A DNA stretch of 64,000 nucleotides from Draconibacterium orientale (lineage in GTDB: Bacteria > Bacteroidota > Bacteroidia > Bacteroidales > Prolixibacteraceae). The position numbers were made by a program, and so were the translations under genes. Under the pieces are notes generated by a model. The model was not told the origin of the DNA. It made no database searches and saw only the letters and a program-made list of their open reading frames with translations. Of this stretch, positions 36,831 through 57,495 are shown one piece after another. Location: NCBI RefSeq assembly GCF_000626635.1, contig NZ_CP007451.1:868001-932000 (forward strand). The letters run 5' to 3'. Each line of letters begins with the position of its first letter. The first letter of the stretch is position 1.

Positions 36831-36919
36831 GGTTGGGTTACACACCCTAATCGGCAGTATAACCCAACCCAACAATATAGATATAACCCAACTTGTCGGG
36901 TTCCATGTACGTTAGCTGC
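36831..36919 (+). promoter_or_regulatory. attI-like primary insertion site with recombinase-binding repeats
   Basis: The junction G36911/T36912 (GTTAGCTGC) is matched by the reverse complement GCAGCTAAC in the attC of the first cassette. Upstream, TATAACCCAAC occurs twice as direct repeats at 36858-36868 and 36882-36892 (24 bp apart), with an inverted copy GGTTGGGTTA at 36831-36840. This is the layout expected of attI accessory sites. Confidence 0.65.
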
Positions 36920-36947
36920 AATATTAGGAAGCTGCCACATAATTTTA

Positions 36948-36955
36948 TATATTTG
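36948..36955 (+). promoter_or_regulatory. Candidate Bacteroidota -7 promoter element in the first cassette
   Basis: TATATTTG at 36948-36955 matches the TAnnTTTG consensus exactly. A -33 TTG is not clear at the expected spacing. It would drive the ABC-F gene 119 bases downstream. Confidence 0.35.
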
Positions 36956-37073
36956 CAAAATCTAAAACTAAACAGTCAGTAGGGATGAAAAAATAATTTC
37001 TTTCACATATAGATAAAAAAGTACAGTAGAATATTTTGCTGTGAGTGTTTCATTTTTTATAAAGAAAGAAATT

Positions 37074-38663
37074 ATGTTGACTTTACATAGTGTATCATAT
37101 ACACACCCTAATAAAGATTTGCTGTTTACTGACATCAACCTAACGATAAACAACCACGACAAAATAGCTTTGATTGGTAGCAACGGAGTTGGAAAATCAA
37201 CGTTGTTGAAAATTATTGCTAAAGAATTAGAACCGTCAGGCGGTAAAATAAATGTTGATGCGGAACCGTATTATATCCCACAAATTTGCGGACAGTTTAA
37301 CCATTTGAGCATTGCTCAGGCATTAAGGATTGAAAATAAGTTAAATGCCTTAAATGAAATTTTGAACGGAAACATAAGTGAAGAAAATTTCAACCTGCTT
37401 AATGATGACTGGACATTAGAAGACCGTTGTAAAGATGCTCTGAACTATTGGCATTTATCCAATTTAGACTTGTCTCAAAAAATGGACACCCTTAGTGGAG
37501 GACAGAAGACAAAAGTTTTTCTCGCAGGCATTTCTATCCATCAATATGAGTTGGTTTTGCTGGACGAACCAAGCAATCATTTGGATATTTTTGGCAGGCA
37601 ACTGTTGTATGATTATATTCAATCTACAGAAAGTACTTTGGTTATCGTAAGCCACGACAGAAAATTACTGAACCTCTTAGATACCGTTTGCGAATTAAAC
37701 TCAAATGGAATTAAAGTCTATGGTGGTGATTACGACTTTTATAAGGAACAAAAACAAATTGAAATAAATGCGCTTAACCAAGATATTCAAAGCAAGGAAA
37801 AGGACTTGAAAAAAGCCAAAGAGAAACAACGTGAAACTTTGGAACGTCAAAGAAAACTGGACACACGAGCAAAAAAAAGTAGTGGTAAAGCGGGGCTTCC
37901 TAAAATAGTTTCCAATGCTATGAAAAACAGTGCAGAGTTAAGTACTGCTAAAATAGCGGGTGTTCACACAGAAAAAATAGGAATTGTCAGAACTGAATTA
38001 CAAAAGTTGCGTTCTTCCCTTTCTGAAATTAACCAAATGAAGTTTGGATTTGACAATTCAAAACTTCATAGAGGCAAAAATCTTTTTATTGCAAATAGTA
38101 TTAATTTCGGGTACACAACCGAAAACTATTTATGGAGAGAAAATTTGAATTTTCAAATTGTTAGTGGGGAACGAATATCTGTAAAAGGAGCAAACGGTTC
38201 TGGTAAAACGACTTTAATAAAAATGATTTTGGGATATCTTGTACCGCAAATCGGCACAGTCTTTATTGCAGAAAACAAATCGGTTTATATTGACCAAGAT
38301 TATTCGTTAATAGATAACAACCGAAAAGTTTATGAGCAGTCACAGCAATTTAATACTTTTGCATTGCAGGAACACGAAATAAAAATAAGACTAAATAGGT
38401 TTTTGTTCCCAAAAGAAGATTGGGACAAGCCTTGCAATGCTTTAAGTGGTGGGGAAAGAATGCGTTTGATGTTATGTTGTTTAAGCATTTACAATCAATC
38501 GCCAGACATCATAATCTTGGACGAACCGACCAATAATTTGGATATTTATAACATAGAAATACTAACAAATGCCATCAATGATTATCAGGGTACATTGATT
38601 GTCATTTCGCACGATGAAACTTTTTTAGAGCAAATAAACATAGAAAGAACAATTAATTTATAA
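37074..38663 (+). CDS. ABC-F type ATPase (possible ribosome-protection antibiotic resistance protein), cassette C1
   Basis: A 529-residue protein from ATG 37074; a GTG frame from 37041 adds 11 residues. Two ABC domains in one chain and no transmembrane segment: Walker A GSNGVGKSTLL (about 36), signature LSGGQKTKVFLAG (about 140), Walker B LVLLDEPSNHLD; then a charged linker (about 215-300, rich in Lys and Glu), GANGSGKTTLIK (about 372), LSGGERMRLMLCC (about 456) and LDEPTNNLD (about 482). This is the ABC-F layout. Members dislodge antibiotics (macrolides, lincosamides, pleuromutilins, streptogramins) from the ribosome or regulate translation. Which role applies is unknown. It occupies the first, best-expressed cassette position. 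Confidence 0.88.
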   Translation: MLTLHSVSYTHPNKDLLFTDINLTINNHDKIALIGSNGVGKSTLLKIIAKELEPSGGKINVDAEPYYIPQICGQFNHLSIAQALRIENKLNALNEILNGNISEENFNLLNDDWTLEDRCKDALNYWHLSNLDLSQKMDTLSGGQKTKVFLAGISIHQYELVLLDEPSNHLDIFGRQLLYDYIQSTESTLVIVSHDRKLLNLLDTVCELNSNGIKVYGGDYDFYKEQKQIEINALNQDIQSKEKDLKKAKEKQRETLERQRKLDTRAKKSSGKAGLPKIVSNAMKNSAELSTAKIAGVHTEKIGIVRTELQKLRSSLSEINQMKFGFDNSKLHRGKNLFIANSINFGYTTENYLWRENLNFQIVSGERISVKGANGSGKTTLIKMILGYLVPQIGTVFIAENKSVYIDQDYSLIDNNRKVYEQSQQFNTFALQEHEIKIRLNRFLFPKEDWDKPCNALSGGERMRLMLCCLSIYNQSPDIIILDEPTNNLDIYNIEILTNAINDYQGTLIVISHDETFLEQINIERTINL

Positions 38664-38670
38664 AAATACA

Positions 38671-38804
38671 GCAGCTAACACTTTGTATAAGTAATGGCAG
38701 GCGATGTGGTAAATATCAAGGTTTGTAGCCCGCTCAAACTGCGTAGCGGTTTGACAGGAAAGTGCCACGCAATCTGCCACTACTCATACAATTTACCGTT
38801 ATGG
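38671..38804 (+). other. attC1 recombination site
   Basis: R'' GCAGCTAAC (38671-38679) is complementary to the start of cassette C1 (GTTAGCTGC at 36911). Inner arms TTGTATAAGTAATGGCAG and CTGCCACTACTCATACAA form an imperfect stem. R' is GTTATGG at 38798. It contains GACAGGAAAG, shared by most sites of the array. Confidence 0.88.
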
Positions 38805-39410
38805 TGCAGCGTTTGGGGGTTATCGTTAGTATGCGAACTTGTTCTTTAAAATATTGGTATGGTGGGTTTTCACGCCCCACACTTTTTAAGCGGGCTGACT
38901 GTGCTTTGTTGTTTGGTGGGGCTGCGTTAAGCTCATGAGAGCCCGTACAAAAGCCTGTTCGGGCGGTCACAATGTTTGCGGTTTGTCAACTCCTGCGCCA
39001 ATTTTAACCGTCAAGTAACGGCAGTTAACGTCAGAGAGTTTTACAAAAACAGTGAAAATTATGGCTGGAAAGAAGTTATTTACTGCTGAAGTTTTAGTCC
39101 GTGGTTACCTGGGCTGGATGTCAAAATTGGCACATCACTTGGGAGGGGCAAACATTCCGCCAGTCCTCCTTCGGTTCAGGAAAACCCAGGTAAGTTTGGG
39201 GCTGCCACGCAGGGGCTTTTGCCGACACCATAACAACGTGCATATGTAATGCTGGCAGGCTACGTATGCGAACAGAAAAGCTTTGTTTAACAACGCCAAT
39301 TCGTCATTGACGAATCGGCTGAAAAATATAAATACGAATAAACGAATTGGCTCGGTGGCTAAAATGGAAGTGTAGTTTTTCAAACGCCGCACTCCACATG
39401 CACGCGGCCG
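38799..39410 (+). mobile_element. Cassette C2, no confident protein gene
   Basis: A 612-base cassette with the same length as its second copy C11. An open frame of 45 codons starts at the ATG of the cassette boundary itself (38801-38938, MVQRLGVIVSMRTC) and is kept in C11 with one silent, one missense and one stop-to-stop change, but it has no leader and unusual composition. A second frame (39052-39249) runs into attC2. Between C2 and C11 the block at about 39016-39112 is roughly 40 percent different while both flanks are about 97-98 percent identical. The cassette may be non-coding or encode a small protein. Confidence 0.55.
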
Positions 39411-39416
39411 TTACCA
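39226..39416 (+). other. attC2 recombination site
   Basis: R'' CACCATAAC (39226-39234) matches the cassette C2 start GTTATGGTG. Inner arms CGTGCATATG...TGC and GCA...CACATGCACG pair. R' GTTACCA begins at 39410. This site is longer than most (about 190 bases) and includes an internal CGTCATTGACG palindrome. Confidence 0.85.
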
Positions 39417-39444
39417 ACCATAATAAAACCGAAAAACAACAAAA

Positions 39445-40311
39445 ATGGAAAGTGAAATTAAAATCGGAAAAAAGATATTTATCAGAAACGCTGGAAAAGA
39501 TGAATATTGGCTTCAAGACATTATTTACGAAAACCCAAAAGTTCTTGGACTTGGAGATTTAGTAGCAGTAAACAAAGAAAAGAAACAAGCAAATGGCGGT
39601 AGACTTGATATTCTGCTTAAAGAGCCGACTGAGAATTTAATGTACGAAGTTGAAGTAATGCTTGGAGAAACCGACCCTTCACACATAATTCGTTCAATCG
39701 AGTATTGGGACAATGAAAAACGTAAATATCCACAAAGACAACATTTTTGTGTATTAATAGCGGAATCTTTTGACAGAAGGTATTTTAATGTCATCCAATT
39801 AATGAGTTTAAATATTCCAATGATTGCAATTCAAGCAGACTTATTGGAGGTAAACGGAGAGAAAATTTTAAATTTTTCAAAAATCATTGACATTTATACA
39901 GAACCGGAGGAAGATGAAGAAGACACAAAACAAGTAAATGAATCGACTTGGAACGCGGACTCTCCCTGGACAAATCTAAATGCAAAAGAAATTTATGAAT
40001 CATTAAAAGGCAAACATGACAGAATTGACCTTCGATATACACAAAGTTATATTAGCATAAATATTGACGGACGAAATGCTTATTGGCTGTGCAAAAGAAT
40101 CAAACCGACTTCTGCACTTTTCTTTTCGGTTAAAGACGATGAAAAAGTTGAAGTAATTAAAAAGAAATTGGAAGAAAACGATATCGGTTATACTTACAAT
40201 AGATATAAAGAATTTATGCTAAATGTGGACATAAAATCCCTTAAAAAGAATATTGAATTATTGAATGAGGTTCATGCTATCAGAAACAATAAATTGACTG
40301 ATGATGAATAA
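39445..40311 (+). CDS. PD-(D/E)XK-like nuclease, cassette C3
   Basis: A 288-residue protein. Residues about 35-75 read GLGDLVAVNKEKKQANGGRLDILLKEPTENLMYEVEVML, where the Asp of GGRLDIL and the Glu residues of YEVEVM fit the D-(E)x(E/K) core of the PD-(D/E)XK fold found in restriction and repair nucleases; the catalytic Lys is replaced by Val-Glu, so activity is uncertain. The C-terminal half (about 175-285) is a charged domain with LRYTQSYISINIDGRNAYWLCKR. It is the only gene of the cassette, starts 34 bases after the boundary and stops 5 bases before attC3. A defence or restriction role is inferred from fold and context. Confidence 0.6.
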   Translation: MESEIKIGKKIFIRNAGKDEYWLQDIIYENPKVLGLGDLVAVNKEKKQANGGRLDILLKEPTENLMYEVEVMLGETDPSHIIRSIEYWDNEKRKYPQRQHFCVLIAESFDRRYFNVIQLMSLNIPMIAIQADLLEVNGEKILNFSKIIDIYTEPEEDEEDTKQVNESTWNADSPWTNLNAKEIYESLKGKHDRIDLRYTQSYISINIDGRNAYWLCKRIKPTSALFFSVKDDEKVEVIKKKLEENDIGYTYNRYKEFMLNVDIKSLKKNIELLNEVHAIRNNKLTDDE

Positions 40312-40316
40312 ATTAC

Positions 40317-40452
40317 GGTTGGTAACAAAGTACATATTGCAGGGCGGGGTTCGGTGGTACGCCAACTGCGGATTCTCGTTTCGCAGTTCCGTGTCCTTCG
40401 GACAGGAACGCTCTCCGAAATCCGCCCCGACAACATGTACCAACCGTTACCG
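40317..40452 (+). other. attC3 recombination site
   Basis: R'' GGTTGGTAAC (40317-40326) complements the C3 start GTTACCAACC over ten bases. Arms AAGTACATATTG and CAACATGTAC pair. R' GTTACCG begins at 40446. It contains GGACAGGAACG. Confidence 0.9.
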
Positions 40453-40511
40453 CCAAGTGAAAAAAGACACAGCGGTATAGACAAATAGCAACTTGAAAAT
40501 AGCCCACGCAC

Positions 40512-40573
40512 AAACAGCACATTTGCAATTCGCACAAGCCGACACACAACCAAAAATTGCAAAAGAGCTGTTT
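40512..40573 (+). other. Mismatched hairpin H1 upstream of the restriction-modification operon
   Basis: AAACAGC-ACA-TTTGCAATT pairs with AATTGCAAA-AGA-GCTGTTT. The ACA/AGA internal loop is a C-G pair between two A.A mismatches; the apical loop is about 24 bases. The same architecture, with different stem sequences, recurs at 44718, 50798, 53979 and 57530. Confidence 0.7.
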
Positions 40574-40630
40574 CTTTTCCTTCGCACGGTGCAAATGACT
40601 ATTTTTATTGCTTGATATTAAAATGGACAA

Positions 40631-43600
40631 ATGAGTATATTTCAAAAATCAGTTATAAACAATCATTTATCGCAGCTTGACAAAGACCAAGTTGAAAAAG
40701 CATTTGCAAAATTCAACGACAATTATTCTTTCTCAAAAATTGCTGAGATTCAAAAAATGAAAGAGGAAGAATATCAAGACGGATTTCTTCGGGATATATT
40801 TGTTGACGTTTTTGGTTACACTTTAAAACCTGCTGACAATTACGATTTAGCACGAGAATTTAAAAATCAGACTGATGGTAAAAAAGCTGACGGAGCAATT
40901 CTTAAAAATGATAATGCAATTGCAGTTATCGAGCTAAAATCCACAAAAACAAAAGACCTTACAAAAGTTACTCAACAAGCTTTCAATTATAAAAACAATC
41001 AACCCGAATGTAAATATGTAATTACCTCAAACTTTCAAAAACTTCGTTTTTATATTGACTATGCAAACGAATATGAGGAGTTTGACTTGTTTAACCTACA
41101 AAAGGATGATTTTCAGCTTTTGTATTTGCTCTTACAAAAAGATAGTATTTTATCGGACTTGCCGCTAAAATTGAAAACAGAAACCAAATTCCACGAGGAA
41201 AAAATTTCTGATAAACTATACAAAGACTATTCTTCGTTTAAATATAAAATTTACAACAACCTTGTAAAAAACAATCCGCAATTCGACAAAATAACCCTTT
41301 TTAAAAAGTCGCAGAAATTTCTCGACCGGTTATTGTTCGTGTTTTTTGCCGAAGATACCGGGCTGGTTCCGCCAAATGCAATCTCAAAAATTATTGAGCA
41401 ATGGCAATTATTTATTGACAACGATGAGTATTTCTCGCTTTACAGTCGATTTGTAAAGTTTTTTATACATCTCGACAAAGGGCATAAATACAAAACCTAT
41501 GATTTGCCAGCATACAACGGTGGGCTGTTTGCACCAGATGAAATTCTCGACAATATTACAATTGATGATGAAGTACTGAAAGACGATGCATTATTACTTT
41601 CGGCTTACGATTACAGCACCGAAGTTGATGTGAATATTCTGGGACATATCTTTGAGCATTCGCTGAACGAAATAGAAGAAATAACTGCCGAAATTGAGGG
41701 AACAGCTACCGACAAAAGCAAAACAAAACGCAAAAAAGACGGTGTTTTTTACACGCCCAAATACATTACTCAATACATTGTTGAAAATACCATTGGTAAA
41801 CTCTGCACCGAAAAACGACAAGAACTTGACATACTTGAAATTGAGTTTGACGAAACAATAATCAATAAAACGGGAAAGATTTCGGCAAAGGGTAAAAAGT
41901 TGTTTGAAACACTCCAATCATACAAAGACTGGTTGTTTAGTTTAAAAATTGTTGACCCAGCGTGTGGTTCGGGGGCATTTTTGAACCAGGCACTCAATTT
42001 TCTGATAAACGAACATCAACAAATTGATGATATTATTGCCGAGCTGACAGGAGAGAAACTCCGTTTGTTTGACACCGACAAAACCATTTTAGAGAAAAAT
42101 CTTTACGGTGTTGACATTAACGATGAAAGCGTTGAAATTGCCAAACTTTCTTTGTGGTTACGCACAGCACAAAAAGGTCGAAAACTCTCGAACCTGAACA
42201 ATAATATTAAATGTGGCAATTCGCTGATTGACGACCCCGAAGTGGCAGGAGAAAAAGCCTTTAATTGGAAAAACGAATTTCCTGAAATATTTGCAAATGG
42301 TGGTTTTGATGTGGTTATTGGCAATCCGCCGTATGGAGCTAAGATTTCAAAACCTGATTTTGAATTCTACAATAAAATATATGAAACAGCTCATTATAAG
42401 CTTGATACTTTTTCCTTGTTTATAGAAAAGTCAATGAATATAATAAAGGAAAAAAGAGTCTTAGGTTTAATTGTTCCTTATACTTGGCTAACAATACAAC
42501 AACATTCCAAACTTAGAAAATTTGTTTTAAAGTATAATCTTCAGCAAATAATCGACTTACCAACTAAAATATTTTCGGACGCAGACTTAGACACAGTAAT
42601 ATCAATTATACGGAAAGATAATTTTGGGAATGAAGTTCAAATTGGAAAAATATTTAAAGACGAGATAAAGTTATGTAATTCATTATCCTACAACAATATT
42701 AAATCCTCTGCTGATTTATTGATAAATGTAAACCTCACAAATATCGATTATGAAATACTGGACAAGATTAAAAAGGCAAATAAGCTAACTGACAATTTTG
42801 ATGTTTCTCAAGGATACATTCCATATAGAAGAAGTGACTTGATTATCGAATTTGGAGAAGAAGAAGGAAATAAAATTGTTGATGAAAGACTTTGGCATTC
42901 ATCTCAAAAAATAAGTGAAGATTTTAAACAAGAAATACAAGGTAAAGATTTAAGCAGATATTGTTATAGAGAGAGCTTTCAGTATATAAAATATGGGAAA
43001 CATTTAGCAGGTTATGTTGACCCAAAATATTTTAAGTCACCTCGAATTTTAATAATGGAGGTAACAAGAGGAGATAAATACGTTTTGAAATCTTGTCTTG
43101 TAGAAAAGGAATTTTATAATACTCCCTCAATAATAAATATCATATCGAGAGACAATAACATTGACAGCTTAAAATATTTATTATCAATAATTAACTCAAG
43201 CCTATTAACTTGGTATCACAAAAAAGTTCACCCGAAGGCAAATGCAATAACTTCAATTCCTAAAATCTTAGTAAATGACGTTAGAAACCTGCCTTTAAAA
43301 CCTTTAGAAAGCAATAGTCAACAACCATTTTCCGAAAAAGCCGACCAAATGCTTTCACTCAACAAAGAGTTACAAGAAAAAGCTAGTCGATTTCTAAACC
43401 GCATAACAAGCAATTTCGAAATAGAAAAAATAAGCACCAAACTTGAAAAGTTTTATGACTTTGATTTTAAAACCTTAGTTGCAGAACTCAAAAAACAAAA
43501 GATAAAACTCTCGTTGGTACAGCAAGATGAATGGGAAGAATATTTCAACGCTTACAAAGCAGAAATAAACACTCTGCAAAACCAAATATCGGCTACTGAT

Positions 43601-43681
43601 AAAGAAATCGACCAAATGGTTTATGAACTTTATGGTTTGACCGAGGAAGAAATAAAAATTGTGGAAAATTCAATACAATAA
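40631..43681 (+). CDS. Type IIG-like restriction-modification enzyme (Eco57I-type), cassette C4
   Basis: A 1016-residue single-chain enzyme. The N-terminal nuclease domain contains DGAILKNDNAIAVIELKST (about 90-108; D...ELK of the PD-(D/E)XK fold). The central methyltransferase has motif I DPACGSGAFLNQAL (about 441) and motif IV VIGNPPYGAK (about 560), as N6-adenine methylases do. The C-terminal part (about 650-960) is a target-recognition region followed by a helical tail. Such enzymes both methylate and cut DNA at an asymmetric site and act against phage. It stops one base before the RhuM gene. The two genes share a cassette flanked by hairpins H1 and H2. Confidence 0.88.
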   Translation: MSIFQKSVINNHLSQLDKDQVEKAFAKFNDNYSFSKIAEIQKMKEEEYQDGFLRDIFVDVFGYTLKPADNYDLAREFKNQTDGKKADGAILKNDNAIAVIELKSTKTKDLTKVTQQAFNYKNNQPECKYVITSNFQKLRFYIDYANEYEEFDLFNLQKDDFQLLYLLLQKDSILSDLPLKLKTETKFHEEKISDKLYKDYSSFKYKIYNNLVKNNPQFDKITLFKKSQKFLDRLLFVFFAEDTGLVPPNAISKIIEQWQLFIDNDEYFSLYSRFVKFFIHLDKGHKYKTYDLPAYNGGLFAPDEILDNITIDDEVLKDDALLLSAYDYSTEVDVNILGHIFEHSLNEIEEITAEIEGTATDKSKTKRKKDGVFYTPKYITQYIVENTIGKLCTEKRQELDILEIEFDETIINKTGKISAKGKKLFETLQSYKDWLFSLKIVDPACGSGAFLNQALNFLINEHQQIDDIIAELTGEKLRLFDTDKTILEKNLYGVDINDESVEIAKLSLWLRTAQKGRKLSNLNNNIKCGNSLIDDPEVAGEKAFNWKNEFPEIFANGGFDVVIGNPPYGAKISKPDFEFYNKIYETAHYKLDTFSLFIEKSMNIIKEKRVLGLIVPYTWLTIQQHSKLRKFVLKYNLQQIIDLPTKIFSDADLDTVISIIRKDNFGNEVQIGKIFKDEIKLCNSLSYNNIKSSADLLINVNLTNIDYEILDKIKKANKLTDNFDVSQGYIPYRRSDLIIEFGEEEGNKIVDERLWHSSQKISEDFKQEIQGKDLSRYCYRESFQYIKYGKHLAGYVDPKYFKSPRILIMEVTRGDKYVLKSCLVEKEFYNTPSIINIISRDNNIDSLKYLLSIINSSLLTWYHKKVHPKANAITSIPKILVNDVRNLPLKPLESNSQQPFSEKADQMLSLNKELQEKASRFLNRITSNFEIEKISTKLEKFYDFDFKTLVAELKKQKIKLSLVQQDEWEEYFNAYKAEINTLQNQISATDKEIDQMVYELYGLTEEEIKIVENSIQ

Positions 43682-43682
43682 A

Positions 43683-44699
43683 ATGGCAAATAATAACCAG
43701 CAAAATATAATTTTTTATAAAACTGCCGACGGCAAAGCATCGGTCGCGTTGTATGCCAAAGACGGCAATATTTGGATGAACCAAAATCAACTTGCAGAAC
43801 TTTTTGCCACCTCTGTTCCAAACATTAGTATGCACATATCAAACATACTGAAAGACGGAGAGTTAGAGCATAATTCAGTTATTAAGGATTACTTAACAAC
43901 TGCCGCCGACGGTAAAGAATACAATGTTACATTTTACTCGCTTGATATGATTTTGGCAATCGGTTTTCGGGTGCGTAGTAAACGAGGCACACAATTTAGG
44001 ATTTGGGCAAACAAAAACCTGAAAGAATATATGGTTAAGGGTTTTGTAATGGACGATGAACGTTTAAAAAATCCAGACGGCAGACCCGACTATTTCGATG
44101 AATTGCTGGAGCGGATACGCGATATTCGTGCATCGGAAAAACGTTTTTACCAGAAAATCAAAGACTTGTTTGCACTTAGTAGTGACTACGATGGAAGCGA
44201 TAAATCAACTCAAATGTTTTTTGCTGAAACACAAAATAAACTTCATTACGCTGTAACAGGACAAACGGCAGCCGAATTGATTGTTTCGAGAGCAAGTGCT
44301 GAAAAACCAAATATGAACTTAACCTCGTGGAAAGGTTCAATTGTACGGAAACAAGATATTTTCATTGCAAAAAATTACTTAACCCACGATGAGATTGATA
44401 CACTAAACAGATTAGTTGTTATCTTTCTTGAAAGTGCCGAGTTAAGAGCCAAAAACCGACTTGACATTACAATTGATTTTTGGAGAGAAAATGTTGATAG
44501 GATTCTTGATTTTCAAGACAAAAAAATATTGCCCAATGCAGGTTCGATAAGTAAAGCTCAAATGGAGAAGCTGGTAGCTGAGATTTACACAAACTTTGAT
44601 AAACGGAGAAAAGAATTTGAAGCATTACAAGCTGACAATGACGATTTGGAAGAATTAAAAAAATTAGAACAAAATATTAAAAGCAAAAAGAAAGAATAA
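43683..44699 (+). CDS. RhuM-family protein, cassette C4
   Basis: A 338-residue protein from ATG 43683; a start at 43659 would overlap the upstream gene. It matches the virulence RhuM family: an N-terminal winged-helix-like part (MNQNQLAELFATSVPNISMHISNILKDGEL, about 32-61), VRSKRGTQFRIWANKNLKEYMVKGF (about 100-124), and a C-terminal helical domain with HYAVTGQTAAELI. RhuM genes are often beside restriction-modification genes, as here, but the biochemical role is unknown. It lies in one operon with the type IIG-like enzyme. Confidence 0.85.
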   Translation: MANNNQQNIIFYKTADGKASVALYAKDGNIWMNQNQLAELFATSVPNISMHISNILKDGELEHNSVIKDYLTTAADGKEYNVTFYSLDMILAIGFRVRSKRGTQFRIWANKNLKEYMVKGFVMDDERLKNPDGRPDYFDELLERIRDIRASEKRFYQKIKDLFALSSDYDGSDKSTQMFFAETQNKLHYAVTGQTAAELIVSRASAEKPNMNLTSWKGSIVRKQDIFIAKNYLTHDEIDTLNRLVVIFLESAELRAKNRLDITIDFWRENVDRILDFQDKKILPNAGSISKAQMEKLVAEIYTNFDKRRKEFEALQADNDDLEELKKLEQNIKSKKKE

Positions 44700-44717
44700 T
44701 TGCCAACGCTTCGTAGT

Positions 44718-44779
44718 CAAGCACATTGGCTGGTCGCACAAAAAAGCCATCGCACGACCAAAACCAACCAAAGAGCTTG
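44718..44779 (+). other. Mismatched hairpin H2 downstream of the restriction-modification operon
   Basis: CAAGC-ACA-TTGG...TGGTCG pairs with CGACCA...CCAA-AGA-GCTTG, with the same ACA/AGA internal loop as H1 but an unrelated stem sequence. It lies between rhuM and attC4. Confidence 0.6.
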
Positions 44780-44852
44780 CCTACCCCAACGCACGGCAGA
44801 CAGAGAAACAGTTGCTAATTGACAAAAATAATGACAGAAAACATCAACACCA

Positions 44853-44985
44853 GGCGGTAACAATCTGTATATGTCATAGCCGTTTTAGTGGGTAATTGTA
44901 GGTTCATCACCCGCAACAACTTCATCTCGGTTTGACAGGAAAGTAGCCCGCAATCGGCTACGCCACATACAGTTCACCGTTAGCG
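44853..44985 (+). other. attC4 recombination site
   Basis: R'' GGCGGTAAC (44853-44861) complements the C4 start GTTACCGCC at 40446, 4.4 kb away. Arms CTGTATATG...TAGCCG and CGGCTA...CATACAG pair. R' GTTAGCG begins at 44979. It contains GACAGGAAAG. Confidence 0.9.
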
Positions 44986-45126
44986 CAAATATTGAAAAAT
45001 TGGGACAGATGATAAACACCAACGTTTTAGCACACCACGATGACAAAAAGCAGTTTCACGCACGTTGCTTAGTAGTCAGAGCATGGTGTTGACTATCAAT
45101 GTTCATTAATAAGAAAGGAGACAGTC

Positions 45127-45240: not shown

Positions 45241-45314
45241 TGGTGTGGCGGGGAGTTACGGCTCTCCGCTTTTATGCTAAATTACAACACAAAATATTAA
45301 CCAATAAAAAAGCA

Positions 45315-46668: not shown

Positions 46669-46716
46669 GTCTTATTAAATTAAAAACAAGCATCATGACG
46701 CAAAATCGAAATACTT

Positions 46717-46841
46717 GCGCTAACAAAGTGCAAATGAGCATTAGCCAAATATTGCTACGCGTGAAATACACAATGTTAACTTATTACGCGGCGTTAATTA
46801 TCTTATCGGCTGGCTAACGCCACTTGCACCAACCGTTACCT
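46717..46841 (+). other. attC5 recombination site
   Basis: R'' GCGCTAAC (46717-46724) complements the C5 start GTTAGCGC at 44979. Arms GTGCAA...GC.TTAGCC and GGCTAA.GC...TTGCAC pair. R' GTTACCT begins at 46835. It lacks the GACAGGAA element. Confidence 0.85.
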
Positions 46842-47958: not shown

Positions 47959-48090
47959 GCAGGTAACAATGTATAAAAATAATAGCCGAAATAGCGGTAA
48001 ATTCAAGCGGTTTAGCCCGCTTCAGCTTTCTTGTAATTTGACAGGAAAGTGCAACGCAATCGGCTACTATTCTTATACGAGCCGTTAGTA
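47959..48090 (+). other. attC6 recombination site
   Basis: R'' GCAGGTAAC (47959-47967) complements the C6 start GTTACCTGC. Arms TGTATAAAAATAATAGCCG and CGGCTACTATTCTTATACG pair. R' GTTAGTA begins at 48084. Confidence 0.9.
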
Positions 48091-48798: not shown

Positions 48799-48933
48799 GC
48801 TACTAACAAATTGTAAATTGCATTGCGGGGTTCGTGCGGTGTCGTTCGCTGGATTCTCGCAACATCGTTCCGTCCTGCCGGACAGGAACGAGCTCCGAAA
48901 TCCGCAACGACAACTTACAAGTGACCGTTGTAC
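48799..48933 (+). other. attC7 recombination site
   Basis: R'' GCTACTAAC (48799-48807) complements the C7 start GTTAGTAGC. Arms TTGTAAATTGC and GACAACTTACAA pair. R' GTTGTAC begins at 48927. It contains GGACAGGAACG. Confidence 0.9.
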
Positions 48934-50377: not shown

Positions 50378-50582
50378 AACCCATGGGAGTGGTATGCCCT
50401 GTTATGAAATATGGATTAAATTATGCAACTTTAAGAGCAACTTTTAATGAAAAAGGGACTTTATAACAAACCTAAAACAAGAAAACCAATTTTAAGCCCG
50501 TACAATCCGGACTCCCAAATGGTTATTCTCGAAATGGAATTATATAAACCCCTAATAAATAGTGAAATAAAAACAAAGCACA

Positions 50583-50773
50583 GTGTACAACAAAGTGTAA
50601 ATTTAATACGGGTGGGCGTGGTAGTTGAAACGGCCACTTTTCAATCCAACACCGCCAAATCTTTGATTTGACGGTTGTAAAATAAAAAAGGGAAAGTTAA
50701 AGATTTGGCTCGCTGCAAACTTGACAGGAAAGCTCTTCGAAGTCCCGTACTAAACTTACACCAACCGTTGTAT
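50583..50773 (+). other. attC8 recombination site
   Basis: R'' GTGTACAAC (50583-50591) complements the C8 start GTTGTACAC. Arms GTGTAAATTTAATACGGG and CCCGTACTAAACTTACAC pair with two mismatches. R' GTTGTAT begins at 50767. A long site (about 190 bases). Confidence 0.88.
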
Positions 50774-50797
50774 GCAAGCTGAAAATGCCAGCGCACA

Positions 50798-50856
50798 AAC
50801 AAGAGAGTGCCAAGTCGCCCACACACAATCCAAACAAGACTTGCCACACACTTGTT
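50798..50856 (+). other. Mismatched hairpin H3 upstream of the GIY-YIG/ATPase operon
   Basis: AACAAG-AGA-GTGCCAAGTC pairs with GACTTGCCAC-ACA-CTTGTT: a GC pair between two A.A mismatches, as in H1, with a different stem sequence. It ends in a T6 run, so it may also terminate transcription. Confidence 0.65.
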
Positions 50857-50876
50857 TTTTGCCGACACACTGAGAT

Positions 50877-51341
50877 ATGAAGAAAGAAACATCAGATATT
50901 AAAATATTTTTTGACCAGCCAAAGTCTTTTGAGTTGCAGAACATAAAAGCTTTGATGGGTTTAACAGGATTGTATTTCATCTTTACCGAAAAGACTAAAA
51001 TTCAATATCCATTTAAAAAGTCTAGACTTCTTTATATCGGCATGAGTGAAAAGAAAACGAATTCAATGGGCAATAGACTAAATGGACATTTTAGTGGCAA
51101 AAGTAAAAATTTGGGTCTTGTAAATTATCGAAAAGTTGAATCATTATTTTTTACTTATATAAACTTTGAAATGCTTCGAGATATTTGGGATTATAGAATA
51201 GAAGACCTAGAAAGTTATTTTATATTAGACTTTGTTGAGAAATTTGGAGTATATCCTATCTGTAATAATAAATCAGGATATGAGATATTAGATAAAGAGA
51301 TAAGTGCAAATTTTAAAATTGATTGGCAATATTTTGAATAA
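50877..51341 (+). CDS. GIY-YIG nuclease-like protein, cassette C9
   Basis: A 154-residue protein. GLYFIF (about 30) and LLYIGMSEKKTNSMGNRLNGHF (about 50-71) are the GIY and YIG strands with the downstream Arg and His; DLESYFILDFVEKFG contributes the metal-binding Glu. GIY-YIG domains cleave DNA in homing, repair and defence. It is the first gene of an operon with a 70-residue protein and an SMC-like ATPase, and 20 bases follow hairpin H3. Confidence 0.8.
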   Translation: MKKETSDIKIFFDQPKSFELQNIKALMGLTGLYFIFTEKTKIQYPFKKSRLLYIGMSEKKTNSMGNRLNGHFSGKSKNLGLVNYRKVESLFFTYINFEMLRDIWDYRIEDLESYFILDFVEKFGVYPICNNKSGYEILDKEISANFKIDWQYFE

Positions 51342-51352
51342 ACCCTAAGAAT

Positions 51353-51565
51353 ATGGAAAATAAAATCAGAAGTGGCAAAGAAGTCATCGATGACTTCTTC
51401 GCTGAAATTTTAAATATTGAAGGGACTGATGAAAAAACAGTCGAAAAATTAATTGAGTTATATAGTGATAATAAGCTTACCGATAGCAATATTCAGAATG
51501 CCTTAGAAGAATTAAAGCAAGATGCTATATCACCTAAAAAATCAGGAACAGATGGCAAAGATTAA
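51353..51565 (+). CDS. Small acidic protein, cassette C9
   Basis: A 70-residue, helical, acidic protein (VIDDFFAEILNIEGTDEKTVEKLIELYSDNKLTDSNIQNALEELKQ) with no recognised family. It starts 11 bases after the nuclease stop and overlaps the ATPase start by 14 bases. Likely a small partner of the ATPase. Confidence 0.55.
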   Translation: MENKIRSGKEVIDDFFAEILNIEGTDEKTVEKLIELYSDNKLTDSNIQNALEELKQDAISPKKSGTDGKD

Positions 51566-53962
51566 TTCAATAAAAATAAGTGGACTTAGAGGCGTTAAAG
51601 AGCCGTTAAGCCTTAATTTAAATAAAAAATCAATTTTAATTTACGGTGATAACGGAACTGGAAAAAGTTCTATCACCGATTCTTTTGAATGGTTCTTTTA
51701 TGACAGAATTGAACACTTATCAAATGAGGAAATTGGTAGAAGAAAAGGTAAGGATGCCGTTCGAAATATCTTTATACCAGATACTGAAGATGGATATATT
51801 GAACTAAAGTTTGATGACAACAACCTCGACTCAAAAAAATCAATTGACAATTCCCTTCGCAATTCTTTATCAAACACCTCTGATGAATTAAACAATTATT
51901 TAAGTGCATCCAGTTCTGAAAGACTTATCTTAAGGTATCGTGATTTAGTTCAGTTTATAATCGCTGGTAAAACGGATAAACTTACTGAATTACAAAAAAT
52001 TATTGGTTTTTCTGATGTTGCAAACTTAAGAGCATTATTAAAGAAAAGTGCTGGAAGAATTGCAAGGAATATTAAAGCCATAAACTATGATAATCTAAAA
52101 AACATTCAACAAAGAATAATTCTAGAAAATCTGGAACGGAATTCATATTCTGATGAACAACTTTTTGAAGGAGCAAATGAGCTGATTAAGCCTTTAAAAC
52201 TTGATTTTGAGATAAAATCACGCACTGATATAAATGCTGTATTAAAGAAAATTGAGAGTAAAGAAGATACAGCCTTAATAGAGCAGATAAATTATCACAT
52301 GAAAGTATGGGAAGTTTTTTCTGAATTACAAGGAAATATAGAGCCAATTGCTAATGCGTATAAAACATTTTATGATTCGTTTGTAGATTTACAGAAAGAC
52401 CCTGAAAAAATAAAGAAGCTTCAACTCCTTTCCCTGTTACAAGAAGGGCAAAGTGTATTAAGTAAAGATGTTGTAAAAGAAGACTATTGCCCTCTTTGTC
52501 TGCAAGAAAAAAGTAAAATAAGTTTACTTCAAGAATTAAATGAAAGAATCTTAGATTTAGAACAACTCTCTACTGAAAAAAAGAAACTAGACGAAAAAGC
52601 CAAAGACCTTGAATCATTAATTAAAACCAGCAGTAGTTCTATTGATACTTTAACAAGGGAGAAACTTTTCAGTAATGAGAAATTTATAAGCATTAAAGAA
52701 AAAATAGAATTAGTAAAATCCTCATTAAATGTTTATTCAGAAGAGTTAAAAAAGGATTTCACTGTAAATTTAATAGACCCTCAAGATTTAACTTTTGACA
52801 AGCTACACATTGAAGAATTTATTGAACATATTAATAAAACAAAAAAAGCTCTAACCGAAACTAAAGAATCAAATATTAAATTTAAGGTCTACACTAAACT
52901 CATGCAGGCATCAAAAGCATATGTTGAGTATCTTAGGATAGAAAAAGAGCAAAAGGTTTTAATAGGACAGCAAACTACATTTGAATTATTATACGAGGAT
53001 TTTATCATAAGGCAGGAAGAGGCACTTAATGTATTCTTATCAATGTTTTCAAAGGACATCAATGATTATTATACAACGATGAACCCTAAAGAAAAGATAA
53101 ATGACATCAAGTTAGTTCCAATAAAGAAAGACGATGAATTAGTTGGTATTACAATTGAGTATAGCTTCTTTAATGAAGTAAAAACTCCACCTATTGCCTA
53201 TTTAAGTGAAAGTCATATTAATTGTTTAGGATTATCATTTTTCCTGGCATCAGTCAAAGCATTTAACAAACAAAACAAGTTCTTTATTTTGGATGATGTA
53301 ATTTCAAGTTTTGACCGTTCTCACCGTTATAGATTTGCACAATTACTCGCAAATAAATTTAATGACTATCAAGTAGTCTTGCTGACACATGAAAAAGAAT
53401 TTTTTCAACTTGTATCAAGTGAGGTAAAAAGCAAAGGTTGGTTATTAAATAGTTTTAAATGGTCAATGGAAAACGGAACTGGTATAGAAAAAGGATTGGC
53501 TGATATTAAAGAGCGAATTGTGAAAAAATTTGAAGAAAAAATACTGATGGTCTAGGCAATGATATCAGAGTCTATACGGAAAAAGTGATGAAACATGTTG
53601 CTCTTGACATAGAAGCTAAAGTCGCTTACAGAAATAATGATGTAAATGAAAAACGAATGGCTCCTGAACTATTGGATTCTGTACAAGCAAAGTTGTCTAA
53701 AGCTAGCAAGCAGATTAAAGAAGTTGCAGACATACCTAAGATTAAAGGAATGCCTATGTTTATGAGTAATACAACATCACACGACAATGACTTTCAGGAA
53801 TCAATTGAGGATTTGGATGCAATATGGGAAGATATAAAGAATATGATTCATGTTTTTTATTGCCCTGATTGTGATAAGTTTATTTCAACTAGATATTATG
53901 ACAATGTGGAGAAAAAGATTAGATGTGGTTGTGGTAAATTAAAATACGAATGGAAAAATTAA
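51552..53962 (+). pseudogene. SMC/RecF-like AAA ATPase with zinc hook, split by a 1-base shift in an A6 run, cassette C9
   Basis: The main frame (from ATG 51552) has Walker A YGDNGTGKSSI (about 30), a long coiled coil, CPLC (about 313; like a Rad50 zinc hook), and Walker B FILDDVISSFD (about 580). As written it ends at 53555 with TAG. The frame from 53585 encodes the natural continuation (TDGLGNDIRVYTEKV...) and ends with CPDC...CGCGK, a zinc ribbon. Adding one A to the six-A run at 53536-53541 joins both into 803 residues. Whether this is a sequencing error, mutation or frameshifting is open. The ATPase pairs with the GIY-YIG nuclease in one operon. Confidence 0.78.
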
Positions 53963-53978
53963 TGCCACCGCATAAAGC

Positions 53979-54036
53979 CATACACATTTGCAATTCGCAC
54001 AGGCTGGCTCACAGCCCAAAATTGCAAAAGAGTATG
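53979..54036 (+). other. Mismatched hairpin H4 downstream of the ATPase operon
   Basis: CATAC-ACA-TTTGCAATT pairs with AATTGCAAA-AGA-GTATG, again with the C-G pair between A.A mismatches. The inner stem equals that of H1, the outer stem does not. Confidence 0.65.
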
Positions 54037-54068
54037 TCTTTGCCAACGCAGACAAAGAAAAACAGCCA

Positions 54069-54201
54069 GCATACAACACGCGGTATAAAAAATTGCCGAG
54101 ACAGTAGGTTATTCAACGATTGTAGCACGATTCAGCTTTTGTGCAATTGGACAGTGAATCGCCCGCAATCGGCAACATTTTCATACCGCCATCCGTTGTA
54201 C
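54069..54201 (+). other. attC9 recombination site
   Basis: R'' GCATACAAC (54069-54077) complements the C9 start GTTGTATGC at 50767. Arms CGGTATAAAAAATTGCCGA and TCGGCAACATTTTCATACCG pair. R' GTTGTAC begins at 54195. Confidence 0.9.
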
Positions 54202-54236
54202 ACAATGCTAAACGCATAGCACAAATAGCTTAAGAT

Positions 54237-54452
54237 ATGATAGTAAATCTTGAATGCGAAATGTGCCATTTTGAATTTGACACAGAACTTGGCAAGCTGG
54301 AAATGGATAAAACAGGCACCCTCATTTACGAGAAAAAACCTACTTGCCCCAGATGTAAAGCTTTTGATAAGGTACTAATTACTGATAAAGGATTTGAACA
54401 GCTTAATAAATGGTTTCTAAAATACCTGGACCAAATTACAAAGAAGAAGTAA
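54237..54452 (+). CDS. Small zinc-ribbon protein upstream of the IS91-like transposase (copy 2)
   Basis: A 71-residue protein identical to the copy at 48969 except for Lys-to-Glu near residue 53. Overlaps the transposase start by 43 bases. Confidence 0.6.
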   Translation: MIVNLECEMCHFEFDTELGKLEMDKTGTLIYEKKPTCPRCKAFDKVLITDKGFEQLNKWFLKYLDQITKKK

Positions 54453-55645
54453 AATATTCTCTGGCAAGCTTTTTTGAACGGTGGTGGAATACCTATGTCA
54501 AATCTCCAAACCATTATATCACCCCCGAACAATACAAAGCGGTTGCTGCAATGCGTGTTTGCCGTACCGAAGCTTTGGGAATCGACCATTATGTTTGCGA
54601 AGAATGTGGAGAAATAAGCCAGGTTTACCACAGTTGCAAAAACCGTTTTTGCCCCACCTGCAGCTGGAAAGACACCATGAAGTGGGCCGAGAAAATGAAA
54701 ACCCAAATGCTGGACATTCCACACCGACATGTGGTGTTTACACTGCCACACAAACTCAACAACTTAATCAGCGACAATAAGAGGGAACTTTTAAGTGCTT
54801 TGTTCAAAGCAGCAGCCGAAGCCATAAAAGACTGGATGATGCACAAATACAAGCTCACCCCCGGGATAATCAGCGTGCTCCACACATTTGGAGAAACAAA
54901 ACAATTGCACCCGCACATTCACATGATACTTTCATGGGGAGGGGTTAACAAAAACAATTGCCTCGAAGAAATTACAGGCGAGTATGTAAACTATAAATTC
55001 ATCCAGACAAAATTCCGGTGTAAGTTCGAAGACAAGCTCTTCGAAATGTTTGATTCAAATACGCTGGAGCAAAATTTTTCAGACCGGATAGAATTTCTCC
55101 GGTTCATTAAAAGAGTAAACGGCAATAGTTGGAGGGTACATTTCGAACCCGCAATCCAAATCCCCGAAGAAGTGATTCGTTACATCGGAAGGTACTCAAA
55201 AAGGGCATGTATCAGCGAATATAAAATAACAAACATCGACGGGGAAAATATCTCGTTCAAATACAAAGACTACAAAAACCTTGACTTTTACGGGAAACCC
55301 ATCGAAAAAGAAATTACGCTGAACTACCGCGAGTTTTTCCCCAGGTTATTACAACACGTTCCGCTGCCTTATTTTAGGATTGTCAGGTACTACGGGGCTT
55401 ATGCAGCAAGGACAAAAGCAGTACTTAACAAAACCCTTGTCAAAATAACAAATAAAACTTCTGAAGCTCCAGAAATTGAAGAGAACGCAGAAACCTATGA
55501 AATGGCTGAAAACCCGAGAATTTGCAAAAACTGCAATACCGAAAAAACATACTTGTTCTCAACATTTAAAAACAAAAAAAATGAGACCATTTATATGACC
55601 AGGTTTAGACCAGAAAAAAACAAAATCAAAAAAACAGCAGCATAA
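54410..55645 (+). CDS. IS91-family HUH/Y2 transposase (copy 2)
   Basis: A 411-residue protein with the same sequence as the copy at 49142: zinc-binding CEECG...FCPTC, HPHIHMIL and YIGRYSKR. Both copies appear intact, suggesting a recent duplication. Confidence 0.9.
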   Translation: MVSKIPGPNYKEEVKYSLASFFERWWNTYVKSPNHYITPEQYKAVAAMRVCRTEALGIDHYVCEECGEISQVYHSCKNRFCPTCSWKDTMKWAEKMKTQMLDIPHRHVVFTLPHKLNNLISDNKRELLSALFKAAAEAIKDWMMHKYKLTPGIISVLHTFGETKQLHPHIHMILSWGGVNKNNCLEEITGEYVNYKFIQTKFRCKFEDKLFEMFDSNTLEQNFSDRIEFLRFIKRVNGNSWRVHFEPAIQIPEEVIRYIGRYSKRACISEYKITNIDGENISFKYKDYKNLDFYGKPIEKEITLNYREFFPRLLQHVPLPYFRIVRYYGAYAARTKAVLNKTLVKITNKTSEAPEIEENAETYEMAENPRICKNCNTEKTYLFSTFKNKKNETIYMTRFRPEKNKIKKTAA

Positions 55646-55850
55646 AACCCATGGGAGTGGTATGCCCTGTTATGAAATATGGATTAAATTATGCAACTTT
55701 AAGAGCAACTTTTAATGAAAAAGGGACTTTATAACAAACCTAAAACAAGAAAACCAATTTTAAGCCCGTACAATCCGGACTCCCAAATGGTTATTCTCGA
55801 AATGGAATTATATAAACCCCTAATAAATAGTGAAATAAAAACAAAGCACA

Positions 55851-56041
55851 GTGTACAACAAAGTGTAAATTTAATACGGGTGGGCGTGGTAGTTGAAACG
55901 GCCACTTTTCAATCCAACACCGCCAAATCTTTGATTTGACGGTTGTAAAATAAAAAAGGGAAAGTTAAAGATTTGGCTCGCTGCAAACTTGACAGGAAAG
56001 CTCTTCGAAGTCCCGTACTAAACTTACACCAACCGTTATGG
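55851..56041 (+). other. attC10 recombination site
   Basis: Second copy of attC8, with R'' GTGTACAAC (55851-55859). The R' box here is GTTATGG, supplied by the next cassette (56035), showing how R' follows the neighbour and R'' the own cassette. Confidence 0.88.
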
Positions 56042-56647
56042 TGCAGCGTTTGGGGGTTATCGTTAGTATGCGAACTTGTTCTTTAAAATATTGGTATGGT
56101 GGGTTTTCACGCCCCACTCTTTTTAAGCGGGCTGACTATGCTTTGTTGTTTGGTGGGGCTGCGTTAAGCTCATAAGAGCCCGTACAAAAGCCTGTTCGGG
56201 CGGTCACAATGTTTGCGGTTTGTCAACTCCTGCGCCAATTTTAACCGTCAAGTTAAGCTAGCTGACGTCGGCGTGTTTAACAAAGCCGGTGAAAATTATG
56301 GCCACACAGTGGTTGTTCACTGCCGACAATTGGGCAGGTGGTTACCTGGGCTGGATGTCAAAATTGGCACATCACTTGGGAGGGGCAAACATTCCGCCAG
56401 CCCTCCTTCGGTTCAGGAAAACCCAGGTAAGCTTCGGGCTGCCACGCAGAGGCTTTTGCCGACACCATAACAACGTGCATATGTAATGCTGGCAGACTAC
56501 GTATGCGAACAGAAAAGCTTTGTTTAACAACGCCAATTCGTCATTGACGAATCGGCTAAAAAATATAAATACGAATAAACGAATTGGCTCAGTGGCTAAA
56601 ATGGAAGTGTAGTTTTTCAAATGCCGCACTCCACATGCACGCGGCCG
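56036..56647 (+). mobile_element. Cassette C11, second copy of cassette C2
   Basis: 612 bases, same length as C2. The left about 217 bases differ at three positions and the right about 300 at about eight, but the middle block (about 56253-56349) differs at roughly 40 percent of positions without length change. The 45-codon frame at 56038-56175 is kept. Confidence 0.6.
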
Positions 56648-56653
56648 TTAGTA
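56463..56653 (+). other. attC11 recombination site
   Basis: R'' CACCATAAC (56463-56471) complements the C11 start GTTATGGTG. R' GTTAGTA begins at 56647. Nearly identical to attC2 apart from R' and point changes. Confidence 0.85.
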
Positions 56654-56700
56654 GCAAGGTTAAAATAGCCGCTTTTCAATAAATATTTGTCAAATGATTT

Positions 56701-57345
56701 ATGACTAAACGAATTCAAATATTATTAATTGGATTTTTAATCACATTGACAACGAATGCACAAGTCGCTGACACAATACTTGTCATCGGACAATTGACTT
56801 CAAAAGATAAAAATCCTTTGCCTGGAGTATCAATTGGTATTCCCAAAGTAAAAAATGGAACTGTATCAGATGTTTGTGGAAGATTTGAAATAAAAGTACC
56901 AATTGAAGGAGTAATAAATTTTTCAATGATTTCGGAACCTTATTATATTAGCATGAACGATATTGCTCCAAATAAGGACACAATGTATTTGAATTTCCAA
57001 TTTGACTTAAAAGCTGAGAACTTCAATTGTGACGAGTCAATTTCAAAATTCAAAAGAATTAAACTAAACGAGAAAAACAGAGATACATATTCTCAAAAAC
57101 TGTTAGCCTGCTTCACAGACAATTTTGAAAAACACACATTGGACTATTATAATCATTTTAAGGTATTAAATCAGGACTTCCTATTTGTTATTAACGGACA
57201 TGTTATGGATGACGATTTTTCACCTGAAAATTTAATGTTCAACGATTTTAAAAAAGTCTACGTCTATAACAATTATGCAAATAACCGAAATATTCTAATT
57301 ATTATTTCAATGAATGATAATGGCAGAAAAGAGTGGAGAAAATAG
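56701..57345 (+). CDS. Secreted protein with carboxypeptidase-regulatory-like domain, cassette C12 (copy of C7)
   Basis: A 214-residue protein with the signal IQILLIGFLITLTTNAQ. It differs from the C7 copy mainly at PGVS, NKD and TMY. Both copies are open throughout, consistent with selection for function, or with recent duplication. Confidence 0.7.
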   Translation: MTKRIQILLIGFLITLTTNAQVADTILVIGQLTSKDKNPLPGVSIGIPKVKNGTVSDVCGRFEIKVPIEGVINFSMISEPYYISMNDIAPNKDTMYLNFQFDLKAENFNCDESISKFKRIKLNEKNRDTYSQKLLACFTDNFEKHTLDYYNHFKVLNQDFLFVINGHVMDDDFSPENLMFNDFKKVYVYNNYANNRNILIIISMNDNGRKEWRK

Positions 57346-57360
57346 AAAAGATAAAACCCA

Positions 57361-57495
57361 GCTACTAACAAATTGTAAATTGCATTGCGGGGTTCGTACG
57401 GTGTCGTACGCTGGATTCTCGCATCGCAGTTCAGTCCTGTCGGACAGGAACGAGCTCCGAAATCCGCAACGACAACTTACAAGTGACCGTTGTGC
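57361..57495 (+). other. attC12 recombination site
   Basis: R'' GCTACTAAC (57361-57369) complements the C12 start GTTAGTAGC. R' GTTGTGC begins at 57489. The stem interior differs from attC7 by paired changes. Confidence 0.9.

Follow-up and report, generated by a model that had tools for sequence, protein, structure and literature searches.

Can a cassette array of the integron type be run by a recombinase that is not an IntI? This question is raised by a locus of Draconibacterium orientale (Bacteroidota, Prolixibacteraceae) in which the gene of a 373-amino-acid tyrosine recombinase, a predicted cassette integrase (35703..36824), is followed in the same direction by a long array of gene cassettes that end in attC-like sites. 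The window analysed here is a whole stretch of 64,000 nt, positions 868,001 to 932,000 of contig NZ_CP007451.1; unless stated otherwise, coordinates are those of the window, and the features of the array in the window lie on its plus strand. The locus is best described as an integron-type cassette platform with exact cassette copying, most likely carried out by the neighbouring non-IntI recombinase, the predicted substrate of which is the folded bottom strand of the sites; we put the probability of this reading at roughly 0.86.

The array starts at 36912, the first T of the first junction. Each of the 12 sites that are complete in the window (cassettes C1 to C12) has an R'' box that is the exact reverse complement of the start of its own cassette over 9-10 nt, G included (C3 and C5 reach 10 nt), and cassette C13, the site of which lies beyond the window at 64309-64424, obeys this own-start rule as well. 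Compared with the starts of other cassettes, the R'' boxes show on average 3.8 and at most 6 matching bases (150 cross-pairs); the true pairings of C1 to C13 sum to 119, and none of 99,999 shuffles is as good, the best reaching 93. The initial annotation of the window had claimed the rule for 12 sites, with partners kilobases apart in C4 (40446 versus 44853) and with cassettes of 0.6 to more than 6 kb. Recomputation returns the rule in 12 of 12 sites, with shuffles far below, a span of 40447-44861 for C4, and lengths of 612-6,936 bp for C1 to C13. The limits of the array had been set at 36912..57495, of which the start is exact but the end is wrong: in a lenient chain search, the array runs on for about 7 kb beyond the window to ~939,037 on the contig, as a single chain of 19 cassettes (the same search adds 3 edges ahead of the array that are spurious, and finds up to 8 edges in local shuffles). 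A stricter search splits the array into chains of 14 and 4, with the break at C15, where the arm is 8 nt long. The element GACAGGAA, described as mostly shared by the sites, is indeed present in eight of the 12 (the whole window has 8 matches versus 1.6 expected), in a variant form in C9, and absent from C2, C5 and C11, but judging from the site alignment it is a local sub-feature and not general to such sites.

The segment of 87 nt between the stop codon of the recombinase gene and the first junction (36825..36911), which ends in GTTCCATGTACG|TT, is identified as attI by comparison with a second array of the same genome. A covariance model built from 72 sites, which spans AAC to GTT and is blind to the variable R'' bases and to the cassette start, detects 32 sites in this genome at E≤0.05, distributed over the main array, the second array (minus strand, ~4.636-4.665 Mb), a further group (2.02 Mb) and single sites. 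Array 2, located ~3.7 Mb from the main array on the contig, opens after the same GTTCCATGTACG and adjoins a recombinase remnant. The two loci are near-identical from the end of the recombinase gene through attI to G|TT and then diverge, so that attI is defined by the exact point where they part. The recombinase, attI and the second array find no mention in the initial annotation. The remnant occupies ~15101-15346 (minus strand) of the array-2 locus, which still has cassettes identical to some of the main array. Inspected by eye, several of 20 attI sequences contain a short, nearly perfect palindrome that stops a few bases short of the junction, a feature in which they are unlike the attC-like sites.

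Three cassettes, C7 (843 bp), C11 (612 bp) and C14 (611 bp), are 100% identical to copies in array 2 from junction to junction, and within the main array, C8 and C10 share 99.95% identity over exactly 1,840 bp. Past the junction, the identity extends by no more than 8 nt in six comparisons, and the flanks differ; among the duplicated cassettes, only C8 and C10 contain a transposase gene. Judged by these boundaries, cassettes have been copied to new positions as exact units bounded by G|TT at either end. The same cassettes in a different order, which the initial annotation proposed to seek in related genomes, are found inside the same genome, in the second array, with homology ending at G|TT.

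The sites themselves are predicted to fold in the attC-like manner that was anticipated: computed folds of 14 sites consist of an R stem, an unpaired central spacer, an L stem and a variable terminal structure. In the alignment of 72 sites, two-sided changes that keep the pair occur in all 11 of the 11 predicted pairs. The near-invariant columns are AACA, T10, A18, G21, C101, C104, A112 and CGTT, with no further contiguous core. For 86 sites, the mean pairing score of the L arms is 13.8 with the own partner, 5.9 with partners swapped between genomes and 7.0 with partners swapped within the array, in a test that required own stems of at least 9 and in which the chain and stem thresholds enrich for good stems. 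Folded with DNA parameters, 115 of 122 sites are more stable as bottom than as top strand. Top-strand mismatches of A with C, which become T.G on the bottom strand, number 192 versus 38 for top-strand G.T, and this bias has the same direction in 22 of 22 loci (21 and one tie without the six core-adjacent bases); bulges in 116 sites are divided into 30 on the left and 27 on the right. The inner length is 116-122 nt in 82 of 123 sites, and the base before TT is G in 119 of them and A in 4. Across loci, the inner lengths form classes of 36-38 (in the plasmid array L084), ~48-57, 116-122 and ~150-185 nt. An Rfam search of positions 35500-64000 gives no match at E≤0.1.

The recombinase matches PF00589 and PF13495 and is predicted to comprise an N-terminal domain, a core-binding domain and a catalytic domain; its stop codon lies 87 nt upstream of the first junction. 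The best-matching family is archaeal XerA, which scores 217 bits (cut-off 220) and carries the NCBI description "site-specific tyrosine recombinase/integron integrase", and the IntI model TIGR02249 scores 198 bits against a cut-off of 265, with a match in two pieces. In the comparison with the solved structure of IntI4, residues 275-299 of the recombinase face residues 180-247 of IntI4 (24 versus 67 residues), so that about 43 are missing. Two conserved motifs are 64-72 residues apart in 88 of the 93 Bacteroidota sequences that match the recombinase at E≤1e-15 in the collected loci (the exceptions are one sequence at 110 and four that are odd or without a value), versus 106-107 in ten IntI. 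A tree of 76 sequences, the bootstrap of which is not fully converged, places IntI in one clade (100/100) that excludes the window recombinase; the latter groups with two plasmid recombinases from clusters that resemble rAID, arrays of short immunity genes of the type VI secretion system, and with one sequence from a metagenome-assembled genome (97/89), apart from the two Xer-like recombinases of its own genome (100/100). A search of the D. orientale genome for IntI yields no match at E≤1e-60. On these alignments, the window recombinase is not an IntI: the IntI-specific insertion of ~40 residues (the I2 helix, around patch III) is absent. The initial annotation was right about an integron-type array with respect to site anatomy and exchange, but the recombinase next to it falls outside IntI.

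An AlphaFold model of the recombinase (mean pLDDT 85, pTM 0.57; residues 79-89 unreliable) contains an extra predicted N-terminal domain at about residues 1-75, with the order b-b-a-b-b-a-b. A Pfam search with ten such N-terminal domains detects DUF5710-like similarity in two only (E 3e-7 and 9e-4). Some members near arrays have no such domain in the open reading frame used (e.g., the 297-amino-acid protein of locus L053), and the domain is not proven necessary. Structure searches (Foldseek, VIA) recover tyrosine recombinases in general, with IntI4 at the top in Foldseek and archaeal Xer proteins at the top by Z.

Homologues of the recombinase (E≤1e-40) are encoded in 199 of 395 Bacteroidia genomes, D. 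orientale included. Model sites are present in 270 of 390 sampled Bacteroidia genomes and in 86 of 148 genomes of a phylum sample that overlaps the class sample; these multi-genome surveys used stricter filters, and no more than 9 (class) or 23 (phylum) candidates were scored in any genome, so that the site counts per genome are lower bounds. Canonical IntI is found in 1 of the 390. If the 390 genomes of the site survey are taken to be the first 390 of the 395 in the recombinase survey, sites occur in 178 of 194 recombinase-positive versus 92 of 196 other genomes (p=4e-23, kinship ignored). The model detects no site in any of 37 genomes of other phyla with related recombinases (a selection from 50 such loci), nor in the nine other-phyla genomes whose IntI is in the tree. 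There are 167 model matches in 1.10 Mb around recombinases (training sites included) versus 1 in 400 kb of control DNA. The initial annotation had assumed that integron arrays with such long cassettes are little described in this phylum; the type of the array was correctly recognized, but the sites are widespread, and part of them was apparently seen earlier as rAID clusters.

The own-start rule extends to sites on which the model was not trained. With at least 6 of 7 variable bases matching, 68 of 86 held-out consecutive site pairs (53/62 and 15/24) obey it, versus 19 of 511 controls with other starts from the same loci (17/392 and 2/119). This test took in 77 of 79 matches (two partial ones were dropped), left out loci L076 and L079 with two matches each, and is not fully independent because some array-2 sites copy main-array cassettes. 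A stricter chain search of 41 loci, including that of D. orientale, finds chains of at least 3 cassettes in 22, with 123 sites in total; this set omits short loci and several long chainless ones (L043, L100, L102, L105, L107 and L123). In a matched test, chains of at least 3 edges lie downstream of the recombinase in 10 of 18 loci versus 0 of 40 control strands, the latter being DNA from elsewhere in the same 18 genomes and two more. Among 50 loci from other phyla, the chain search returns only L163 (3 edges, on both strands), from a genome that has an IntI with normal spacing and no model site.

The recombinase is encoded on plasmids as well, namely, L083 of Chryseobacterium and L084 and L085 of Bacteroidales. 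On the Chryseobacterium plasmid, the recombinase is followed by five model sites, so that such arrays can apparently travel. Several draft contigs (e.g., G391:C3, G166:C7 and G016:C4) stop within a few hundred bases downstream of the recombinase, as expected if arrays break assemblies. TnpF, a truncated tyrosine recombinase that adjoins tet(X3) on plasmid pHH1107 (6028-6693), is 53% identical to residues 145-372 of the window enzyme, and many matches from Acinetobacter plasmids show the same 53% identity among the matches listed. The site model gives no match in this tet(X3) locus up to E=10, and a link between tet(X) and the cassette system may be considered a lead only.

Three other explanations of the locus have to be weighed. 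The array could be a classical integron run by an ordinary IntI, be it local or from another place in the cell, with only the neighbouring recombinase being odd. The attI, attC and cassette anatomy is alike, the recombinase obtains 198 bits with TIGR02249 and IntI4 as its best Foldseek match, and NCBI gives its relatives a name that includes "integron integrase"; however, the score is below the cut-off of 265 and the match is split, 24 residues stand in place of 67 in IntI4, the motif distance is 64-72 (88 of 93) versus 106-107, and the IntI clade excludes the enzyme. Given also that IntI is missing from the genome itself (E≤1e-60) and occurs in 1 of 390 genomes of the class, and that the site model is blank in the nine IntI genomes of other phyla, a classical integron is very improbable. 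Alternatively, in recombination of duplex DNA of the Xer type, as in pdif-like modules, the inverted repeats would be two binding boxes only. This would suit an Xer/XerA-like enzyme and the short palindrome seen by eye before the junction in several of the 20 attI sequences, and the own-start rule alone fixes only the crossover point. Yet duplex recognition would conserve sequence, whereas the arms are free in sequence and keep their pairing. Outside AACA and CGTT, near-invariance is limited to six scattered columns, and bottom-strand folding is consistently favoured, which makes the duplex explanation unlikely.

Finally, the sites could be RNA elements, such as terminators or processing hairpins, or else repeats that owe their spread to homologous recombination or the IS91-type transposase. 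They are intergenic and on the transcribed strand, and the transposase gene is present in C8 and C10. However, an RNA copied from the top strand should tolerate G.U, and it is A.C that is tolerated (192 versus 38). Rfam has no match at E≤0.1; terminators need no correspondence between an end and a start kilobases apart; and C7, C11 and C14 are copied exactly without a transposase gene of their own. An explanation along these lines is scarcely credible.

Against the preferred reading, a platform moved by the neighbouring recombinase, stand several points that keep it short of certainty. The attI, the array, the own-start rule, the exact copies, the covarying arms, bottom-strand folding and the tie between recombinase and array across Bacteroidia are read from nucleotide sequence, from which we infer that recombination would occur, that the recombinase would be the mover and that single strands would be used. 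Only a remnant is left of the genome's second recombinase, so that the enzyme that moved the copies can likewise only be inferred. Among the genomes without a strong recombinase match, 92 of 196 still have sites; the enzyme may have been lost, other enzymes may act, or the assemblies may be fragmented. The own-start rule fails in 18 of the 86 held-out pairs, some of which may be explained by undetected sites in between. No chain is found in 19 of the 41 loci of the stricter search, the omitted long loci give only 1-2 edges, 8 of the 18 matched loci have no 3-edge chain after the recombinase, and the closest relative of the same order (G139) has no model site. The arm scores come from stems preselected as good, and the strand bias is due mostly to two conserved A/C positions (96 of 116 sites and 44 sites). 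Because they are concentrated at these positions, the A/C mismatches are not independent events; in the alignment, the A/C pair is a conserved mark more than the product of many separate events. Furthermore, the insertion is considered essential yet "not fully conserved" in an integron-like subgroup (PMC8138268), so that IntI-like proteins without the insertion are already on record.

Under the preferred reading of an integron-type platform, the recombinase would bind the folded bottom strand of a cassette-end site and cut in the AAC box, opposite G|TT; cassettes would be excised as circles, and the circles would be inserted at attI or at other sites. The enzyme would recognize the strand by a conserved mismatch in the arm, A facing C (on the bottom strand, a T.G wobble), and not by the classical extrahelical bases alone. 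The outcome would be a stockpile in which phage-defence, immunity and other genes are kept and reordered, among them an entire Wadjet operon of four genes within a single cassette.

Compared with IntI integrons, the common features are a recombinase gene next to attI, a one-way array, R''/R' and L''/L' arms, complementarity to the own start, a G|TT crossover, clusters of sites away from the integrase, and strand asymmetry of the hairpin. The differences are the lack of the IntI-specific insertion, a different N-terminal domain in many members, a recombinase gene co-directional with the cassettes, multi-gene cassettes, and inner sites that are mostly 116-122 nt long with a conserved A/C mismatch. 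Thus, the system works like an integron but is not one of the IntI type; it is likely widespread, with a recombinase that is not IntI. The insertion is regarded as the mark of IntI, and Bacteroidota are listed with the phyla in which integrons occur, at a prevalence that varies widely (PMC9668308). Formerly, no more than cassette-less integrases was known from Bacteroidetes, followed by one complete integron in Salinibacter ruber (PMC9024848). The integrase of classical integrons has a strong preference for the attC bottom strand and makes contact with extrahelical bases (PMC11641012). The strand mark of the present sites appears to differ from these bases, and the preferred strand appears to be the same.

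As described in PMC12247911, rAID clusters are arrays of short type VI secretion system immunity genes that come with conserved motifs between the genes and a predicted tyrosine recombinase; neither "integron" nor "attC" is used in the main text of that paper. The recombinases of two Bacteroidales plasmid loci that are rAID-like group with the window enzyme (97/89). The Parabacteroides plasmid array L084, rAID-like by its annotated immunity genes, obeys the own-start rule over 5 steps (3 at the stricter setting), but its sites are 36-38 nt inside and the junction is A|TT, unlike those of the window. The rAID-like array L085 of B. ovatus gives a one-step chain only at the thresholds used. The founding rAID paper, by Ross et al. 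in 2019, may have compared these clusters with integrons already. Whereas rAID cargo consists of short immunity genes (~100-300 codons), the window cassettes encode an ABC ATPase, a Type IIG restriction-modification enzyme, an SMC-like protein, Wadjet and a transposase, with proteins of up to 1016 amino acids. In Riemerella anatipestifer, homology-independent insertion of resistance genes with an attC-like 3' segment of 140 bp is described, with the mechanism left open and no recombinase named (PMC13148043); the Bacteroidota host and the attC-like end are common to that case and the present one. From XerA and XerC/XerD, the system differs by having arrays of cassettes and, in place of dif, structured sites, and by an enzyme outside the clade of the genome's own Xer-like pair, and, in contrast to Xer/dif and pdif, there is no conserved short duplex core over the 72 sites. 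A literature search, covering the available parts of the sources, found no account of Bacteroidota integrons with this recombinase, nor one that joins the rAID and Riemerella observations.

The cassettes of the window follow one another without gaps. C1 (36912..38798, 1,887 bp; attC-like site 38671..38798) encodes a 540-amino-acid protein with two ABC ATPase domains (ABC-F-like). C3 (39411..40446, 1,036 bp; site 40317..40446) encodes a 288-amino-acid protein without a Pfam family, and C4 (40447..44979, 4,533 bp; site 44853..44979) a Type IIG restriction-modification enzyme (1016 amino acids) together with a RhuM-family protein (346 amino acids). C5 (44980..46835, 1,856 bp; site 46715..46835) contains the genes of a 138-amino-acid protein and a DUF6680 protein. 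C6 (46836..48084, 1,249 bp; site 47959..48084) encodes a metallo-beta-lactamase-fold protein with weak matches to LmuA and other defence models, and C9 (50768..54195, 3,428 bp; site 54069..54195) a 154-amino-acid protein, an SMC-like ATPase with LmuB matches and a 125-amino-acid protein; the metallo-beta-lactamase-fold protein of C6 and the SMC-like protein of C9 thus match Lamassu models. C7 (48085..48927; site 48799..48927), the cassette with an identical copy in array 2 (4.64 Mb), encodes a 214-amino-acid protein and has a 97% relative in C12 (56648..57489, 842 bp; site 57361..57489). C13 (57490..64000 in the window, 6,936 bp in all, of which 425 bp lie beyond it) holds the Wadjet genes JetA-D in one 6.9-kb cassette. 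JetC of this cassette is split, as the open reading frames 59646-60767 and 60815-63043 match successive parts of the family, which points to an interruption or a sequencing error. A set of 123 cassettes has a median length of 927 bp and extends from 452 to 9,074 bp; the longest may conceal missed sites.

The IS91-type transposase gene (Y2, zinc-finger) lies in a cassette with an intact long site that is present twice nearly unchanged, as C8 (48928..50767; long-class site 50583..50767) and C10 (54196..56035; site 55851..56035). C2 (38799..39410, 612 bp) has a long-class site of 175 nt inside (39226..39410), and C11 (56036..56647), its relative, has a site at 56463..56647; both sites are missed by the site model. 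These two belong to a type of cassette of 611-612 bp without an open reading frame of more than 85 codons, of which the genome contains five copies with 93-100% identity: C2, C11, C14 (64426-65036) and two in array 2, where the identical copy of C11 is the first cassette. This ORF-poor cassette, once found first after attI, may be a promoter cassette, an RNA cassette or a selfish one. Another tyrosine recombinase encoded in the window (4576-5835, minus strand), with an arm-binding domain (PF17293, PF13102), probably belongs to an unrelated mobile element.

Taken more broadly, the observations incline us, with confidence somewhat better than even, to the view that Bacteroidota have an integron class of their own, carried by roughly half of the Bacteroidia genomes or more, the recombinases of which would handle folded single strands without the I2 helix. 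The rAID clusters, plasmid arrays and Riemerella insertions would be its outlets, and IntI would be one branch of an older and wider family; such integrons would have stayed hidden because searches demand the IntI insertion. The I2 helix has been presented as the innovation that took integron integrases from duplex to single-stranded substrates (PMC7790495). A widespread family of recombinases without I2 that is tied to covarying attC-like hairpins makes this question directly testable: if the view holds, I2 would be unnecessary or would be replaced by another part, such as the N-terminal domain or a different strand mark. It would also overturn the picture of Bacteroidota as nearly without integrons, provide a mechanism for rAID clusters, and explain the unit-wise transfer of defence operons such as Wadjet in a major phylum of gut, soil and sea, in the genomes of which such sites can be found with the covariance model supplied here.

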